DNA of 64,000 nt from Marinobacterium sediminicola (GTDB lineage Bacteria > Pseudomonadota > Gammaproteobacteria > Pseudomonadales > Balneatricaceae), in the NCBI RefSeq assembly GCF_022343685.1, contig NZ_CP092123.1, positions 496,001 to 560,000 of the forward strand, written 5' to 3'. Position 1 is the stretch's first letter. Every line of letters begins with the position of its first letter. Shown piece after piece: positions 8,218-28,372 of the stretch. The notes beneath the pieces are model-generated. The model was not told the origin of the DNA, did not search any database, and saw only the letters and a list, made by a program, of their open reading frames with translations. Position numbers and translations under genes: made by a program.

Positions 8218-8982
8218 ATGACTTCTGAGCACCAGCTGATTATCCCTCCGGGGCGCTCCATGCCCCGTCACATCGCGATCATCATGGATGGCAACAACCG
8301 TTGGGCCAAAGAACGACGCTTGCCGGGGCTCGCAGGGCATAAAGCGGGCGTCAACAGCGTTCGAGCCGTGATTGAGGGCTGTGTTGAACAGGGGGTCGAA
8401 GCGTTGACCCTGTTTGCATTCAGTAGTGAAAACTGGAAGCGGCCGGCGCTTGAAGTCAAAGGGTTGATGCAGTTGTTCATGCGTGCGCTGGAACATGAAG
8501 TGCGCAAGCTTCACCGTCACAATATTCGTCTGCGGATTGTGGGGGATCTGAGTCGTTTCAGTCCCGAGTTGCAGAAGCGGATTCGTGACGCGGAAGAACT
8601 CACGGCGGGTAATACCGGTTTGGCGCTCAATATTGCAGCGAACTATGGTGGTCGCTGGGATATTGTACAGGCGGCACGCAGTTTGGCTCAGCGCTGTGTG
8701 GATGGTGAGCTTGATCCGGCTGATATCACCGAAGACCTGTTCAACGAACAGGTTTCCCTTGCTGACCTGGCACCTCCAGATCTGTGTATTCGCACCGGAG
8801 GTGAACAGCGGATCAGCAATTTCCTGATCTGGCAGTTTGCCTACACCGAGTTCTATTTCAGCGACTGCTTCTGGCCTGACTTTGATAAGGCTGAACTATT
8901 TGCTGCGCTGCAGTCATTTCTGACCCGTGAACGCCGTTTTGGGCGTACCAGTGAGCAGTTGGAGGCCGATAAACGGTGTTGA
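8218..8982 (+). CDS. uppS: Undecaprenyl (di-trans,poly-cis) diphosphate synthase
   Basis: 254 aa cis-prenyltransferase that condenses IPP units onto farnesyl-PP to make the C55 carrier for peptidoglycan and O-antigen. The active-site block MDGNNRWAK has the catalytic Asp at about 24. The second signature is RTGGEQRISNFLIWQ, followed by EFYFSDCFWPDF. It overlaps cdsA by 7 bp. It needs IPP, yet the MEP genes that normally lie nearby in this gene order (ispC, ispD, ispF) are absent here. Confidence 0.98.
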   Translation: MTSEHQLIIPPGRSMPRHIAIIMDGNNRWAKERRLPGLAGHKAGVNSVRAVIEGCVEQGVEALTLFAFSSENWKRPALEVKGLMQLFMRALEHEVRKLHRHNIRLRIVGDLSRFSPELQKRIRDAEELTAGNTGLALNIAANYGGRWDIVQAARSLAQRCVDGELDPADITEDLFNEQVSLADLAPPDLCIRTGGEQRISNFLIWQFAYTEFYFSDCFWPDFDKAELFAALQSFLTRERRFGRTSEQLEADKRC

Positions 8983-9779
8983 AGCAGAGAATACTGACCG
9001 CTGTACTGCTGGCGCCTGTCGCGTTGGCAGCGCTTTTCCTGCTGCCGCAGCAGCCCTTTGAATGGGTGGCTGCGGCAGTTTTTCTGTATGGTGCCTGGGA
9101 GTGGGGGAATCTCTGTCGACTCCAGTCTCTGTCGCGGATGATATATGTCTTGGCCCTGGCGGGTCTGATGCTGGTGGTCGGGACTCAGGAGTGGCTCCAG
9201 CCCTGGTCGCTGGGGGCTGCGTTGGTCTTCTGGGTGTTGGCGCTGTTTATGGTTCGCGGTTATCCCGGATCTGCCGGCTGGTGTCGCAAGCAGGCCGGAG
9301 TTTTGATTGGGGTGCTGGTGCTGGTGCCGTCCTGGTTCGCGATGACGGCCTTGCGAGCTCAGGAGCAGGGCCTGCCGCTGCTGCTGATGCTGCTGATGCT
9401 GGTGTGGGGGGCTGATATTGGCGCCTATGCGGCTGGGAAAACCTTTGGGCGCAACAAGCTGATGCCTTTGGTTAGTCCGGGCAAAACCCGCGAAGGGCTT
9501 TGGGGCGGCTTGACGACCTGTGCGTTGGTGGGGGTGCTCTTTTCTATATGGCTGGAACTTGGCCTCTCGGAATCAGTCTATGTGGTGTTGCTGTCGATTA
9601 TGACAGGCCTGGTTTCGGTGCTGGGTGATCTGTTGGAAAGCCTGTTCAAGCGTGAGCGAGGTATCAAGGATAGTGGCAAGCTGTTGCCGGGACATGGTGG
9701 TGTGCTGGACAGAATTGACAGTTTGACCGCTGCAGCCCCGGTATTTCTGGTCGGCCTCTATTTTCTTCAAGGAGCCTGA
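8976..9779 (+). CDS. cdsA: Phosphatidate cytidylyltransferase (CDP-diglyceride synthase)
   Basis: 267 aa inner-membrane enzyme making CDP-diacylglycerol, the branch point of phospholipid synthesis. It uses a GTG start within the end of uppS. There are about seven or eight hydrophobic segments. The C-terminal family signature SLFKRERGIKDSGK, continuing PGHGGVLDRID, is complete. In most relatives the next gene is ispC (dxr); here rseP starts only 8 bp after the stop. Confidence 0.97.
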   Translation: MLKQRILTAVLLAPVALAALFLLPQQPFEWVAAAVFLYGAWEWGNLCRLQSLSRMIYVLALAGLMLVVGTQEWLQPWSLGAALVFWVLALFMVRGYPGSAGWCRKQAGVLIGVLVLVPSWFAMTALRAQEQGLPLLLMLLMLVWGADIGAYAAGKTFGRNKLMPLVSPGKTREGLWGGLTTCALVGVLFSIWLELGLSESVYVVLLSIMTGLVSVLGDLLESLFKRERGIKDSGKLLPGHGGVLDRIDSLTAAAPVFLVGLYFLQGA

Positions 9780-9787
9780 GCATTCCC

Positions 9788-11146
9788 ATGGAGCTGTTGC
9801 AGACCCTGTTGGCCACGCTGGTGGCGCTCGGTGTATTGGTAACTATTCATGAATGGGGCCACTTCTGGGTGGCGCGGCGCTGTGGTGTCAAGGTGCTGCG
9901 TTTCTCCGTTGGCTTTGGCAAGCCTTTATGGATGAGAACGGCAGCCGATGGCACTGAATACGCGATTGCTGCCATTCCCTTGGGCGGCTATGTCCGCATG
10001 CTTGATGAACGCGAAGGTGATGTACCTGAGGCGTTACGGAATCAGGCGTTCAACAATAAACCGGTGTTACAGCGAATAGCCATCGTTGCAGCCGGACCTC
10101 TGGTTAACCTCATCTTTGCCGTTTTGGCTTACTGGTTCCTGTTTATGTCAGGTATCAGTACGGTCGTTCCGCTTGTGGGTGGTGTTGCGGCTGGCTCTCC
10201 CGCTGCCGTAGCAGGAGTCGACAGCGGCTATGAAGTGCTGGAGGTGGATGGGCATCCCGTCCGGACCTGGAATGAGGTGAATTTGCGCCTGGCTGCTCGA
10301 GTTGGGGAGAGCGGTATCATCGAGTTGATGATGGGTGATCCCAAGCGGGGGTATGCTCACAGCTATCAGGTTGAGATCAATGACTGGTCGGTAGATCTGG
10401 AGCGCGAATCTCCACTGTCGGCGCTTGGACTTGAGCCTTGGCAACCGAGCTTTCCGGCTGTGATCGGGCAGCTGCTGCCTGATGGTGTAGCGGCCAGAGA
10501 TGGCTTGAAGGTTGGAGATAAAGTGCTGTCGGTAGATGGCGAATCCGTGGAGGACTGGCTGCACCTGGTCCGACTGATCCAGAGTTCGCCCTCGAAGTCA
10601 CTGCAGCTGAGTGTTGAACGTGAAGATGGGCGTCACACGGTGGTGGTGACACCCGAATCGCGTACGTTTGAAGATGGTCGTGTGCATGGATATATCGGTG
10701 CGGGTGTCGCTCCGGTTGAAATGCCCGAGTCGATGCAGCGCACCTTGAGCTATGGTCCGGTTGATGCACTGGTGAACGGGATTCACAAGACCGGACAGAT
10801 GATCAGTCTTACCCTTGACTCCATCGGCAAGATGATTGCCGGTGTGATCTCGGTAAAAAACTTGAGTGGCCCGATAACCATTGCTAAAGTGGCGGGGACT
10901 TCAGCGGCCTCGGGGCTGGAGTCATTTATCAGTTTTCTGGCCTATCTCAGTATCAGCCTGGGCGTGCTTAACCTGCTGCCAATTCCGATGCTGGATGGAG
11001 GACATCTGCTGTATTACGTTGTCGAGCTGGTGCGTGGGCGCCCAGTGAGTGAGCAGGTGCAGATGCTGGGTCTCAGGATTGGGATGGCCTTGCTGTTCAG
11101 TCTGATGGCATTGGCAATTATCAATGACATCGCCCGGCTCTTTTGA
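9788..11146 (+). CDS. rseP: Site-2 intramembrane zinc protease RseP
   Basis: 452 aa. RseP cuts anti-sigma factor RseA within the membrane after DegS, releasing the envelope-stress sigma factor, and clears signal-peptide remnants. The zinc site HEWGH is at 21-25 in the first membrane helix, and the NxxPxPxLDGGH motif (LLPIPMLDGGH) lies near 400. Two periplasmic PDZ domains occupy about 115-300. Four hydrophobic segments are visible. It directly follows cdsA and precedes bamA, as in the usual envelope operon apart from the missing ispC. Confidence 0.97.
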   Translation: MELLQTLLATLVALGVLVTIHEWGHFWVARRCGVKVLRFSVGFGKPLWMRTAADGTEYAIAAIPLGGYVRMLDEREGDVPEALRNQAFNNKPVLQRIAIVAAGPLVNLIFAVLAYWFLFMSGISTVVPLVGGVAAGSPAAVAGVDSGYEVLEVDGHPVRTWNEVNLRLAARVGESGIIELMMGDPKRGYAHSYQVEINDWSVDLERESPLSALGLEPWQPSFPAVIGQLLPDGVAARDGLKVGDKVLSVDGESVEDWLHLVRLIQSSPSKSLQLSVEREDGRHTVVVTPESRTFEDGRVHGYIGAGVAPVEMPESMQRTLSYGPVDALVNGIHKTGQMISLTLDSIGKMIAGVISVKNLSGPITIAKVAGTSAASGLESFISFLAYLSISLGVLNLLPIPMLDGGHLLYYVVELVRGRPVSEQVQMLGLRIGMALLFSLMALAIINDIARLF

Positions 11147-11196
11147 TCTGAGCCAGTTTTCCTATCAGTCAGCCAAATAAACGTAAGAAGTACTGC

Positions 11197-13542
11197 ATGA
11201 AACGCAAGCTGGGTCTGTTTTTTGTATCGATGCTATGGATGGCGCAGGCGCAAGCTGCCGCGCTCCCGTTTGAAGTCAATGACATTCGCCTGGAGGGATT
11301 GCAGCGGGTCGAGCCCGGCATTGTATTTCGCAACTTCCCGGTAACGGCAGGAGATCAGCTGACACGAAGCCAGCTGTCAGATGCTGTGCGTGAACTGTTC
11401 CGGTCAGGTTATTTTGCTGATGTGCAAGCAGAGCGTGATGGTGACGTGCTTGTGCTCAAGTTGCAGGAAAGGCCTTCGGTCGCCTTGATCAACATCGAAG
11501 GGAATGATGTGATCAAGGAAGAGGATTTGCTTAATGGCCTTAAGCAATCCGGTCTGCGCGAAGGTGATGTGTTTCGTCGTGCGGCGCTGAACCAGATCAG
11601 TCAGGACCTGCTGCGTGTGTACACCTCTCAAGGTCGATACGGTGCGGACATCAATACCGAGGTTGAGCCGCTTTCAGGCAACCGAGTGCAGTTGAATATC
11701 ACAATCAATGAAGGTCAGGTTGCCACCATCCAGCATATCAATATTGTGGGCAATACCGTGTTCAGCGACGAAGAACTGAAAGATTTGTTCTCGTTGAAAC
11801 TGCCCAACTTCTGGTCCTTCTACACCAAAAGCGACCGCTACGCGCGCGAGAAAATGACCGGTGACCTTGAGCGCTTGCGTTCCTGGTACCTCGATCGTGG
11901 CTACATCAATTTCAATATCGACTCCGCTCAGGTTTCGATCACTCCTGACAAGCAGCATGTCTATATCACCGTTGGTATCAGTGAAGGTGAGCAGTTTACC
12001 GTTCGCGATGTGAGTGTGGCCGGTGAAATGGTTGTGCCTCAGGACGTGATGCAGCAAGAGCTGACCGTGAATGCCGGGGAAGTGTTCTCACGCAAGCACA
12101 TGACCGAAAGCCAGGAAAAACTGGTGCGCCTGCTTGGCGACGAGGGTTACATGTTTGCCAATGTGAGCCCTGTTCCTGAAACGCATGACGACAACACGGT
12201 TTCGATCAAATACTTCGTTGAGCCCGGCAAACGCACCTATGTACGCCGCATCAATATCAAAGGCAATACGCGTACTGCCGATGAAGTCATTCGTCGTGAG
12301 CTTGAGCAGATGGAAGCTGGCATCGTCTCCAGTCGAGATATTGAACGTTCCAAGGTTCGTCTGGACAAAACCGGCTACTTCAAAAGTGTGAATGTGGAAA
12401 CGCGCCCGGTTCCGGGTACCGATGATCAGGTGGATCTGGAGTACAGTGTTGAGGAGCAGCAGTCAGGTCAGTTTACTGCCAGTGTCGGTTTCTCGCAGAA
12501 CGACGGCTTGATTCTTGATCTTGGCGTGCAGCAGGATAACTTCCTTGGCAGCGGCAAGAAAGTGGGCTTCAGTATCTCCAACAGTTCAACCCGCACCGAG
12601 TACAGCTTCAACTACCTGGACCCCTATTATACGGTGGATGGGGTCAGTCGTGGCTTCAACGTCTACTTCCGTGAACGTGACTATGAAGAAGACGATATCA
12701 GTTCATATACCGCTGATGAAGCCGGTGGTGGTGTAACCTTCGGCTACCCGATCGATGATTACCAGCGCCTGAGCTTCAGTGGTGATATTGAGTTTATCCA
12801 GCTGAATACCTTTAACTGTGATCGAGATTTTACTAATACCAGTCTGAGCGGAACGGCACAGGATGTTTGTGGCTTCCTGGAAGACGAAGGTAATGACAGT
12901 TTCCTCAACTGGAAATTGACGGCGGGCTGGAGTGATAACCGTCTGAACCGTGGCTTCTTCCCGACCCGTGGTTATGCGCAGGGTGCCAGTATCGAGATGG
13001 CTGTGCCGGGAAGCGATCTGTCCTATATCCGTGCCCAGTACAACAGCAAGTGGTATCGTCCGCTGAACGAGGACGAAACCTGGGTATTGAGTCTGCGTGG
13101 CCGTGCCGGCTACGGTGACAGCCTGGGGGGCAACAACTATCCGTTCTTCAAGCACTTCTATGCGGGTGGCCTGAAATCGGTGCGCGGCTATGCCAACAAC
13201 TCGCTGGGGCCGGTTGACTCCAATGAAGACCCGTTCGGCGGCAACCTGATGTTGACCGGTAATGCCGAACTGATCTTCCCGATGCCTTTCCTTGATGACA
13301 AGAGTGCATGGCGTAGCCTGGTCTTCCTTGATGCTGGTAATGTCTACTCCACCGCTTGCTATACCAGCCAGGTCAACTGCTCGGAAGATGTGGATCTGGG
13401 TGAGTTGCGCTACTCGGTCGGTTTGGGTATCAGTTGGCTGACCCCGATCGGGCCGCTGTCTGTGTCCCTCGGCAAGCCACTGAACAGCAAGGAAAATGAC
13501 GATACCGAAGTGTTCCAGTTTGCGCTCGGTCAGACTTTCTAA
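11197..13542 (+). CDS. bamA: Outer-membrane protein assembly factor BamA
   Basis: 781 aa. The signal peptide ends near AQAQAAA at about 24. Five POTRA repeats follow (to about 420), starting FEVNDIRLEGLQRVEPG. A 16-strand barrel domain ends in the aromatic C-terminus FALGQTF required for its own insertion. BamA is the core of the complex that folds beta-barrel proteins into the outer membrane. The loop-6 VRGF motif appears as VRGY (LKSVRGYANNS). It is followed 9 bp later by the chaperone gene skp. Confidence 0.98.
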   Translation: MKRKLGLFFVSMLWMAQAQAAALPFEVNDIRLEGLQRVEPGIVFRNFPVTAGDQLTRSQLSDAVRELFRSGYFADVQAERDGDVLVLKLQERPSVALINIEGNDVIKEEDLLNGLKQSGLREGDVFRRAALNQISQDLLRVYTSQGRYGADINTEVEPLSGNRVQLNITINEGQVATIQHINIVGNTVFSDEELKDLFSLKLPNFWSFYTKSDRYAREKMTGDLERLRSWYLDRGYINFNIDSAQVSITPDKQHVYITVGISEGEQFTVRDVSVAGEMVVPQDVMQQELTVNAGEVFSRKHMTESQEKLVRLLGDEGYMFANVSPVPETHDDNTVSIKYFVEPGKRTYVRRINIKGNTRTADEVIRRELEQMEAGIVSSRDIERSKVRLDKTGYFKSVNVETRPVPGTDDQVDLEYSVEEQQSGQFTASVGFSQNDGLILDLGVQQDNFLGSGKKVGFSISNSSTRTEYSFNYLDPYYTVDGVSRGFNVYFRERDYEEDDISSYTADEAGGGVTFGYPIDDYQRLSFSGDIEFIQLNTFNCDRDFTNTSLSGTAQDVCGFLEDEGNDSFLNWKLTAGWSDNRLNRGFFPTRGYAQGASIEMAVPGSDLSYIRAQYNSKWYRPLNEDETWVLSLRGRAGYGDSLGGNNYPFFKHFYAGGLKSVRGYANNSLGPVDSNEDPFGGNLMLTGNAELIFPMPFLDDKSAWRSLVFLDAGNVYSTACYTSQVNCSEDVDLGELRYSVGLGISWLTPIGPLSVSLGKPLNSKENDDTEVFQFALGQTF

Positions 13543-13551
13543 GGAGATGTG

Positions 13552-14049
13552 ATGAAACGTTTTACTCGAGCGGCTGCCATGGCTGCCCTGATGTTCAGTG
13601 CACCTGTCTGGGCACAGAAAATTGCAGTATTGAGTGTAGAAGAAGCTCTGTTGACATCCAGTGCGGCAGGCAGCTTTCGCGAGGAGCTGAAAAAGGAATT
13701 TGCTGACGACGAGAAACAGCTGGTCGCACTTGAAAAACAGGCGCGTGAGCTGCGTGACAAACTGCAGAAAAATGCAGGTCTGGCTTCTGAAGAAGACATC
13801 AAGCAGATGCGTTTGCAGTTCCAGAAAGCCTTTGCGGAGTATCAGCGCCAGGGGCAGGCGATGCAACAGCAGCGCGCAGAACGTGAGCAGGCGTTTATCG
13901 CTGAAATGCGTCCTCGTCTGGATAAAGCGATCCGTGAAATCATCGAGAAAGAGAAATTCGATATCGTGATCTCCAAACAGGCAACGGTTTTCAGTGCTGA
14001 CAGTGTTGACCTGACCTCACGCGTGACTGAACTGTTGAACAAGCAATAA
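13552..14049 (+). CDS. skp: Periplasmic chaperone Skp (OmpH family)
   Basis: 165 aa from the ATG at 13552, placed five bases after AAGGAG; a GTG one codon earlier is less well spaced. The signal peptide is cut near APVWA-QKIAVL. The mature part is a long charged coiled coil (about 45-120), the tentacles that hold unfolded outer-membrane proteins on the way to BamA. Position between bamA and lpxD is canonical. Confidence 0.95.
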   Translation: MKRFTRAAAMAALMFSAPVWAQKIAVLSVEEALLTSSAAGSFREELKKEFADDEKQLVALEKQARELRDKLQKNAGLASEEDIKQMRLQFQKAFAEYQRQGQAMQQQRAEREQAFIAEMRPRLDKAIREIIEKEKFDIVISKQATVFSADSVDLTSRVTELLNKQ

Positions 14050-14053
14050 TTCG

Positions 14054-15115
14054 ATGAGCACTGCCGCCTGTTACACACTGGCAGAGCTTGCCGGCATTCT
14101 GGGTGGTGAGCTTCAAGGTGATCCCTCGCTTCAGATTCGCTCCCTGGCTACGCTGATGTCGGCCGGGGAGAGTCAGCTCTCCTTCTTCGCCAATTCCCGT
14201 TATCTGCAGCAGCTCCGCGAGACCAAAGCTGAAGCGGTGCTGGTTTCGGCAGCACATCGTTCGGATTGCCCTGTTGCAACCATTGTCGTGGATGACCCCT
14301 ATCTTGCTTTCGCGCGTGCCAGTCAGTTGTTCGACTGGCGCAGGCCTGCAAAGCCTGGCGTGCATCCGACCGCTGTGATTGCAGAGGGTGTGCCGGTGCC
14401 GGCAGATGCCGAGATCGGTGCCCACGTCGTAATTGAGGCTGATGTTGCGCTTGGGCAAGGTGTGGTCATTGGAGCAGGCTCCGTGATTGGAGAGCGCTGC
14501 GTGATCGGAGACCGCACACGTCTGGAGGCCAACGTGACGCTGTATCCAAACGTGCGCCTTGGCTCTGATGTGCTGGTTCACAGTGCAGCGGTGCTGGGCA
14601 GCGATGGCTTTGGCTTTGCTCCTACTCCTCTGGGCTGGGAAAAAATATGCCAGCTTGGCGGGGTGGTTGTTGAGGATCGCGTCGAGATTGGTGCGGGCGT
14701 GACCATTGATCGTGGCGCGCTGGACGACACGCGTATCGGTGCCGGCGTCAAGTTGGATAACCAGATCCAGATCGCCCATAACGTCGTGATCGGACGGGAT
14801 AGCGCCATCGCAGGCTGTACCGCAGTGGCGGGAAGCACTAGAATTGGCGAACGCTGTACGATTGCCGGGATGACCGGAATTACTGGACACCTTGAGATCG
14901 CTGATGGCAGCCATGTGACAGCCATGTCACTGGTCAGCAAGTCGATCACACGTCCCGGTGTATACTCTTCCGGCACCGGTCTTGAACCACACCAGCAGTG
15001 GAAGCGCAACGTGGTTCGCTTCCGTCAGCTCGACGAGTTGGCGCGCCGGGTGCGTAAACTCGAACAGGCTGTCGAACTATACTCTACAGAAGGTCAAAAA
15101 GATGATGGACGTTAA
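14054..15115 (+). CDS. lpxD: UDP-3-O-acylglucosamine N-acyltransferase
   Basis: 353 aa. LpxD adds the second hydroxyacyl chain to the lipid A precursor. The N-terminal UDP-binding domain (about 1-105) is followed by a left-handed beta-helix of hexapeptide repeats (about 110-310, e.g. [15 protein letters not shown]). The catalytic His is probably in [12 protein letters not shown]-terminal helix ends the protein. The fabZ start lies inside its last codons. Confidence 0.98.
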
Positions 15116-27041: not shown

Positions 27042-27338
27042 GTGTACCGCTGGTTGTTGTTGATTCTGCTGGTGATGCTCGCCGGGCTGCAATATCGGCT
27101 CTGGTTTGGCGAAGCCAACCTGCGTCAGGTATGGCAGCTGGAGCAACAAATTCTGGAGCAGCAGCAGGTTAATCAGCAGCTGACAGAGCGCAACAAACGC
27201 CTTGAGGCTGAAGTGCAGGATCTCAAGCAGGGTCTGACCGCTCTGGAGGAGCGCGCCCGTAGTGAGATGGGCATGATCCGAGAGGGTGAAACCTTCTTCC
27301 AGTTAATCGAACCCGAGCCGGAGACATCTCAACGTTGA
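27042..27338 (+). CDS. ftsB: Cell division protein FtsB
   Basis: 98 aa, GTG start after AGAGGT. A short cytoplasmic tail and one transmembrane helix (about 4-21, LLLILLVMLAGLQYRLW) are followed by a periplasmic coiled coil (about 30-72). FtsB joins FtsL and FtsQ in the divisome. The family C-terminal segment MGMIREGETFFQLIEP is present. In related genomes ispD and ispF follow; here truD overlaps its stop. Confidence 0.95.
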   Translation: MYRWLLLILLVMLAGLQYRLWFGEANLRQVWQLEQQILEQQQVNQQLTERNKRLEAEVQDLKQGLTALEERARSEMGMIREGETFFQLIEPEPETSQR

Positions 27339-28372
27339 ACCTAGATCTCGCCTGTAAGTGGCTGTATGGCGAGCCATTATCCCAAGCGATGCTGCGCAGT
27401 GCCGCGGACGACTTTCAGGTCTATGAACGTCTGCCGTTTGAACCTGATGGCGAAGGGGAGCATCTTTTCCTGTATATCCGCAAGACCGGAGAAAACACTG
27501 ATTGGGTCGCCCGCCAATTGGCACGCTTCTGTCAGATTAGCCCTCGTGATGTCGGCTATGCCGGCAAAAAGGATCGCCACGCCGTAACCGAACAATGGTT
27601 CAGCGTGCGTCTGCCGATCGGAAGAACTTTGAACTGGTCTCTGTTCGGGGGTGAGACTATCGAGGTACTGAAAACGGAGCGCCACAGCCGTAAACTCAGG
27701 CTGGGGGCTTTGTCTGGTAACCGATTTGTCATTCGGCTGCGCCAGGTATCCCAGCCTGACGCATTGGCTGCGCGGATTGAGAAAGTGCGCCTGGGGGTTC
27801 CCAACTATTTCGGCGAGCAGCGCTTCGGCAATGATGGCGGAAACCTGACCAAGGGGCAGGCACTTTTGGCCGGGACGCTGAGGGAGCGCCAGCGACACAA
27901 GAAAGGGTTGTATATCTCTGCCCTGCGCTCCTGGCTGTTCAATCAGGTGATTAGCGCCCGTATTGATCAGCAGTTATGGAGCAGCATACTGCCCGGGGAT
28001 GTACTCATGCTGAATGGCACCCAGAGCTGTTTCATGGCTGATAATCCCTCGGACATGATGCCGCGCCTTGAGCAGGGTGATCTGCATTTGACCGGCCCCA
28101 TGTGGGGGCGTGGCGAGTTGATGACCCAGATCGATGCGCGGGCATTTGAAATGGCAGCGCTGGCGCCATGGCAGTCATTGTGTGAGGGGCTTGAAGGCCT
28201 GGGCCTGAACCAGGAGCGCCGCTCACTTCGATTGATGCCTCAGGGGTTGAAGGCCGAAGCTGAGGCAGAGGACCAGTGGCGTCTGGAATTCGAACTCCCG
28301 GCAGGGGCTTTTGCCACCAGTGTATTGCGTGAACTTTGTCAGTGGCATAACGCGGCCACCGAGCAGATATAA
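27335..28372 (+). CDS. truD: tRNA pseudouridine(13) synthase
   Basis: 345 aa with a TTG start overlapping the ftsB stop by 4 bp. TruD makes pseudouridine 13 in tRNA-Glu. The catalytic Asp is in GYAGKKDRHAVTEQWFS near 80, and the FGEQRFGNDGGN block follows near 160. Length equals the family norm. Its direct contact with ftsB leaves no room for the usual ispD and ispF. Confidence 0.95.
   Translation: MNLDLACKWLYGEPLSQAMLRSAADDFQVYERLPFEPDGEGEHLFLYIRKTGENTDWVARQLARFCQISPRDVGYAGKKDRHAVTEQWFSVRLPIGRTLNWSLFGGETIEVLKTERHSRKLRLGALSGNRFVIRLRQVSQPDALAARIEKVRLGVPNYFGEQRFGNDGGNLTKGQALLAGTLRERQRHKKGLYISALRSWLFNQVISARIDQQLWSSILPGDVLMLNGTQSCFMADNPSDMMPRLEQGDLHLTGPMWGRGELMTQIDARAFEMAALAPWQSLCEGLEGLGLNQERRSLRLMPQGLKAEAEAEDQWRLEFELPAGAFATSVLRELCQWHNAATEQI

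Follow-up and report, generated by a model that had tools for sequence, protein, structure and literature searches.

Two empty slots for isoprenoid genes

The window analysed here, a stretch of 64,000 nucleotides from the Marinobacterium sediminicola genome (G000:C1:496001-560000), contains two junctions at which outgroups carry genes of the MEP pathway, and the features around them are as follows.

8218-8982, plus strand: uppS, for which IPP/FPP is still required; named from its position and its match to the outgroup order uppS-cdsA-dxr-rseP
8976-9779, plus strand: cdsA, left neighbour of the empty dxr slot
9780-9787, no strand: the 8 bp between cdsA and rseP, where the ancestral slot of dxr (ispC) is empty
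9788-11146, plus strand: rseP, right neighbour of the empty dxr slot
27042-27338, plus strand: ftsB, to the left of the empty ispD-ispF slot (NF002058, 129.8 bits, cut-off 101)
27335-28372, plus strand: truD, to the right of the empty ispD-ispF slot

The first-pass annotation had claimed that 8 bp separate cdsA from rseP and that ispC is missing there, and this is borne out by the empty junction, as read in the M. sediminicola genome alone, and by the presence of dxr between cdsA and rseP in all six outgroup loci read, which are those returned by the DXR search from the 13 outgroup genomes with DXR. In E. coli K-12 dxr stands one gene further upstream, flanked by frr and uppS. The loss of ispD and ispF that had been claimed for a second locus is likewise confirmed, as ftsB and truD overlap by 4 bp and leave the slot empty. 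Six ispF loci were read out of the 13 outgroup genomes with IspF; ispD adjoins ispF in each of them, and the full order ftsB-ispD-ispF-truD is present in five, the sixth (L039) being without a ftsB or truD match.

MEP genes across the genome, the family and its outgroups

The search was extended to the complete genome, which is a single contig of 3,554,135 bp rated 100% complete, to a family sample of 25 genomes from 16 genera (the window's genome included) and to an outgroup sample of 13 genomes from other families of the same order. On the single contig neither DXR nor IspF, IspG or IspH has a match. All three GHMP-kinase matches lie inside a mevalonate operon described below and none outside it, which indicates that ispE is gone as well. 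Among the members of the MEP pathway, dxr, ispE, ispF, ispG and ispH are therefore missing from the genome and dxs is found, together with the mevalonate operon. The earlier proposal that three MEP genes are gone while uppS stays holds genome-wide for ispC and ispF and at the ancestral ftsB-truD slot for ispD, and uppS is present.

The same pattern extends to the family. True DXR is found in none of the 25 family genomes as opposed to all 13 outgroups, and the counts are similar for IspF (0/25 vs 13/13), IspG (0/25 vs 12/13) and IspH (0/25 vs 13/13). The GHMP-kinase matches of the 25 genomes, 74 in all, lie without exception on the contig that carries HMGR and within about 6 kb of it. One weak DXR match in a family genome (G021) proved to be a homoserine dehydrogenase.

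Intact MEP genes that had simply moved elsewhere in the genome, with the mevalonate operon as an addition in a dual-pathway organism, would also leave both slots empty. Such bacteria do exist (PMC13001223), and dxs is still present. This explanation is opposed by the failure to find DXR, IspF, IspG or IspH in a complete single-contig genome and in 24 relatives, save for the one false DXR match, by searches that recovered these enzymes from 12 or 13 of the 13 outgroups and from 9 or 10 of the 14 controls, and by the lack of any GHMP kinase beyond the operon. With five steps unmatched genome-wide, and ispD read at its slot, we consider relocation extremely improbable. The absence of the MEP genes together with the presence of a mevalonate operon argues instead for replacement, which the first-pass annotation had suggested alongside relocation.

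A classical mevalonate operon

The six genes of the operon run in the order HMGR-idi2-mvaS-GHMP kinase-MVK-MVD on the minus strand at G000:C1:2834486-2840683 (positions 8487-14684 of the extracted locus L044), and they overlap or are spaced by at most 15 bp.

Gene 1: HMGR, 360 aa; PF00368, 285 bits, cut-off 27
Gene 2: idi2 (type 2 IPP isomerase), 342 aa; TIGR02151, 358.8 bits, cut-off 281.3
Gene 3: mvaS (HMG-CoA synthase), 388 aa; TIGR01835, 522.8 bits, cut-off 360.35
Gene 4: GHMP kinase, 335 aa; passes the general GHMP model only
Gene 5: mevalonate kinase (MVK), 313 aa; TIGR00549, 172.7 bits, cut-off 163.05
Gene 6: MVD (diphosphomevalonate decarboxylase), 335 aa; TIGR01240, 303.9 bits, cut-off 171.35

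Of the enzymes by which the bacterial classical mevalonate pathway is recognised, HMG-CoA synthase, HMG-CoA reductase, mevalonate kinase, diphosphomevalonate decarboxylase and IPP isomerase are represented. HMGR falls below the NCBIfam cut-offs (285.3 vs 441.8), that of TIGR00533 included, and all six of its solved-structure matches are HMG-CoA reductases. The 335-aa GHMP kinase is divergent, its best family model being that of mevalonate kinase at 133.3 bits, below the cut-off of 163.05, and of its 11 solved-structure matches 10 bear the name mevalonate kinase; by elimination it is probably the phosphomevalonate kinase.

HMGR is present in all 25 family genomes. In one small genome of the family (G015:C4:349971-350988, L035) it appears as two overlapping pieces in different frames, either from a frameshift or from a sequencing error. 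At least 572 relatives of HMGR occur in named genomes, and we inspected the best 80 loci for operon order. All six genes follow in the same order in 68 of these best 80; of the remaining 12, eight end by the limit of the sequence and four (L111, L112, L155 and L157) have room for MVD, of which there is no match after MVK at these loci. A gene that we take from its sequence to be DNA polymerase II lies downstream of the operon in 57 of the best 80 loci.

Two of the four loci with room, from M. lutimaris (L111) and M. mangrovicola (L112), match neither MVD nor DNA polymerase II after MVK from position 13138 onwards, and in the place of MVD they carry opposite-strand genes resembling a sensor and a response regulator; MVD may have moved. 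The other two belong to one assembly, Nitrincola sp. A-D6, in which two contigs carry the same operon start and neither has an MVD match, the MVK match of L157 being in three pieces. A complete operon is also present on a contig assigned to Lentisphaeria bacterium UBA2565 (L180), with an HMGR about 77% identical, through either mis-binning or transfer. Finally, a second and longer type of HMGR, covering profile positions 2-368, 3-368 or 14-368 as opposed to about 28-41 to 368, occurs at G025:C22, G027:C17 and C21, G036:C76 and G017:C138 (L010, L009, L036, L008 and L011); its hosts are three outgroup genomes that retain DXR and one family member that carries it besides the operon copy.

The G+C content of the operon, 0.58-0.60, is only slightly above that of its flanks, 0.54-0.58. 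We therefore rejected a foreign composition, and the operon bears no sign of recent arrival.

Retention of dxs, probably for the supply of vitamins

Three results go beyond the earlier claims: dxs stays, the swap is common to the other 24 family genomes searched, and the DXS that is kept has been trimmed. DXS is present in all 25 family genomes and in each of them its gene adjoins ispA. Visual comparison of two stretches, that of M. sediminicola itself (L088) and L101 from G030, shows that the wider neighbourhood is alike, with genes that we take from their sequences to be mot genes, ispA, dxs, pgpA, thiL, nusB and rib genes.

The DXS of the window's genome scores 751.9 bits with TIGR00204, above the cut-off of 465.95. 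Residues H49, D152, H299, E370, Y392, R398, R420, D427, H431 and R478 are conserved in 25 of 25 family enzymes, and we take H49, H299, E370, R420, D427, H431 and R478 to be catalytic. Altogether, 19 of the 22 positions listed are unchanged throughout the family, the other three being position 150 (24 I, 1 V), position 228, which is inside the loop discussed below, and position 289, which is variable in the outgroups too. The choice of important residues was made partly from PMC9068908. A decaying pseudogene can be rejected, since the dxs frames are open in all 25 genomes and the active-site residues are kept.

DXP, the product of DXS, is used by PdxJ for vitamin B6 and by ThiG for thiamine, and it has been described as being shunted to thiamin and pyridoxal (PMC13001223). 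PdxJ is present in every family genome and ThiG in 21 of the 25. Together with the retention of dxs, this suggests that the family DXS most likely serves vitamins B6 and B1 only. The four genomes without ThiG (G008, G010, G015 and G023) measure 2.1-2.5 Mb, leaving only vitamin B6 as the reason for DXS there. One further genome has a second thiG-like frame with a single internal TAA (G009:C1:4518381-4519097) in addition to an intact thiG elsewhere.

A trimmed loop in domain I of DXS

In all 25 family enzymes one loop of domain I is shortened by a net 29-38 residues, and by exactly 30 in 18 of them. The stretch that corresponds to E. coli residues 181-252 is 34-43 residues long in the family, as opposed to 72 in E. 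coli and 72-73 in 12 outgroups, and the lost segment lies around E. coli 199-236. Within E. coli columns 196-240, 7-16 residues are left, compared with 45 in E. coli and 43-50 in the loop-bearing enzymes aligned.

The loop may be nothing more than a dispensable disordered segment that was trimmed neutrally in one lineage, in which case the loss of the MEP genes would be shared with it by descent and would say nothing about what the loop does. Indeed, the loop has been described as very little conserved (PMC10504544), and engineered DXPS enzymes from which it was deleted are still active (PMC9068908, PMC10504544). Our own alignments point the other way for enzymes that work in a MEP pathway. 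In 14 MEP-bearing gammaproteobacteria the pairwise identity of the loop is 59.2%, compared with 64.5% for the rest of DXS, and 8 of 38 positions are invariant (Y205, R209, P220, E230, E231, K234, G235 and M236), which argues that the loop is under constraint there. When windows of the loop's length are ranked by conservation in the 12 outgroups, 190 of 570 fall below the loop, which places it in the lower half and not at the bottom. Furthermore, outside the loop the family DXS resembles E. coli DXS less (54.7%, n=25) than the outgroup enzymes do (58.7%, n=12), whereas the neighbouring IspA shows the opposite trend (51.0%, n=25, in the family and 47.5%, n=11, in the outgroups, one of the 12 outgroup loci being without an IspA match).

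Loop loss outside the family

A class-wide sample of 377 gammaproteobacterial genomes, with completeness of 95 or more, contains DXR in 318. Outside the family, 53 of the 58 genomes without DXR are also without a DXS at E <= 1e-15. Four others (G192, G241, G244 and G367) carry a full-length DXS, and as DXR is present in congeners of three of them (G082, G151 and G235) its absence is likely due to assembly gaps. The genome G156, a single contig rated 100% complete and without DXR, has a loop-less DXS that is 41 residues shorter and scores 509.9 with TIGR00204 (cut-off 465.95); M183 is replaced by Y, and all of the 13 further positions inspected are unchanged. Two more genomes beyond the 25, Parendozoicomonas callyspongiae (G414, L183) and the MAG LUC14_002_19_P2 (G415, L182), carry the six-gene operon together with a loop-less DXS that is 25-27 residues shorter.

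A plasmid of Streptomyces sp. YIM 121038 (L207) encodes a loop-less DXS directly upstream of ispG, with 568.3 bits and thus above the TIGR00204 cut-off, and this contradicts any strict rule that a loop-less enzyme means a MEP-less host.

In a tree built without the loop columns the family DXS forms one clade (SH-aLRT 94-95). Loop loss requires two changes on that tree, in which G156 is a very long branch. The AU test does not reject a topology that unites the loop-less enzymes in one clade, either with the G414-G415 pair (p 0.51) or with G156 added (p 0.41); the loop may thus have been lost a single time, and repeated independent loss is unsupported.

The failure to reject a single origin and the Streptomyces enzyme beside ispG both favour neutral trimming, and the constraint on the loop and the lower similarity of the rest of DXS to the E. 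coli enzyme both speak against it; we give that account an even chance. Alternatively, the loop could serve DXS not in catalysis but in its isoprenoid role, by mediating feedback from IPP/DMAPP, by binding the enzyme that follows in the MEP pathway or by controlling turnover, and it could have been lost once DXS served vitamins only. We put this forward tentatively, as a possibility that is rather less probable than its negation. If it were true, a DXS that serves vitamins only could be recognised in sequence by its missing loop.

A model for pathway replacement

We propose a model in which the mevalonate pathway replaced the MEP pathway in this marine family and dxs alone was kept, for vitamins, and taken as a whole we hold it with high confidence. 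An ancestor of the family would first have acquired the classical mevalonate operon with its six genes; the loss of dxr, ispE, ispF, ispG and ispH, and of ispD from at least the slot it once occupied, would have followed. Acetyl-CoA would then be converted to IPP and DMAPP by MvaS, HMGR, two GHMP kinases (mevalonate kinase and the divergent enzyme, probably phosphomevalonate kinase), MVD and the type 2 IPP isomerase, and the IPP and DMAPP so derived would feed IspA and UppS. The one gene retained would have been dxs, still next to ispA at its former site, since pyridoxal phosphate (through PdxJ) and the thiamine thiazole (through ThiG) are also made from DXP. We infer this order of events, like the enzyme activities and the vitamin-only role of DXS, from the genes and residues set out above. 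The swap would be a case, at the scale of a family, of something already known from isolated bacterial examples. The trimmed DXS, in turn, offers a natural experiment in which an enzyme at the point where the isoprenoid branch parts from that to vitamins B1 and B6 has had one of the two removed by evolution, and it singles out a specific loop with a testable role in feedback, partner binding or turnover.

Comparison with known systems

The mevalonate cluster of Marinobacterium is already in print, so that the replacement half of the model is partly known (PMC5291501). That work describes the mevalonate cluster of 'Candidatus Liberibacter' as sharing its gene order, and more than 50% amino acid identity, with those of M. 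jannaschii, M. litorale and M. stanieri; the first two are among our best 80 of at least 572 HMGR loci (L138 and L128). The text of PMC5291501 available to us is silent on the loss of MEP genes, or on dxs, in Marinobacterium and its relatives. In PMC8560859 the predatory bacterium Venatorbacter, which that study sets beside marine genera, is reported to have no mevalonate genes. For loop loss in mevalonate-using bacteria we found no report in the literature covered, the species table of PMC13001223, which may list these genera, lying outside it. The trimmed and probably vitamin-only DXS, as read from sequence, would thus be the newer part.

Listeria resembles the family in that a partial MEP pathway exists beside mevalonate, its genes being kept for a reason other than isoprenoids; there, however, the pathway stops at MEcDP (PMC13001223), whereas in the family dxs is the sole MEP gene found and DXP is the probable reason for its retention. 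The loop is also missing, with 13 residues in place of the canonical 43-50, from DXS-like proteins of Lactobacillus amylolyticus, Enterococcus faecium, Bacteroides finegoldii and Selenomonas ruminantium. The proteins of L. amylolyticus and E. faecium belong to PRK12315 by score and the other two group with them, and the E. faecium protein is still above the TIGR00204 cut-off (484.5 vs 465.95). In contrast to the family DXS, which keeps all of these residues, the four proteins have R420, D427 and R478 replaced or missing, and two of them Y392 as well; owing to this loss of active-site residues they were left out of the link between the loop and the MEP pathway.

A further parallel is found in the loop-truncated DXPS constructs made for crystallography, from which the same segment was removed as is missing in Marinobacterium. 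Without residues 190-234 the M. tuberculosis enzyme has a kcat 2-3 times higher and a slightly weaker substrate affinity, the P. aeruginosa enzyme without 206-245 is comparable to the native one, and the K. pneumoniae enzyme without 197-240 is active, the native enzyme not having been compared (PMC9068908, PMC10504544). Marinobacterium DXS aligns in one stretch to the glycine-linker chains 8a29 and 8a8y, whose species we infer, and in two stretches to E. coli DXS 2o1s. Those constructs were engineered, whereas the loss of the loop in this family is natural and is seen in 25 of the 25 genomes searched.
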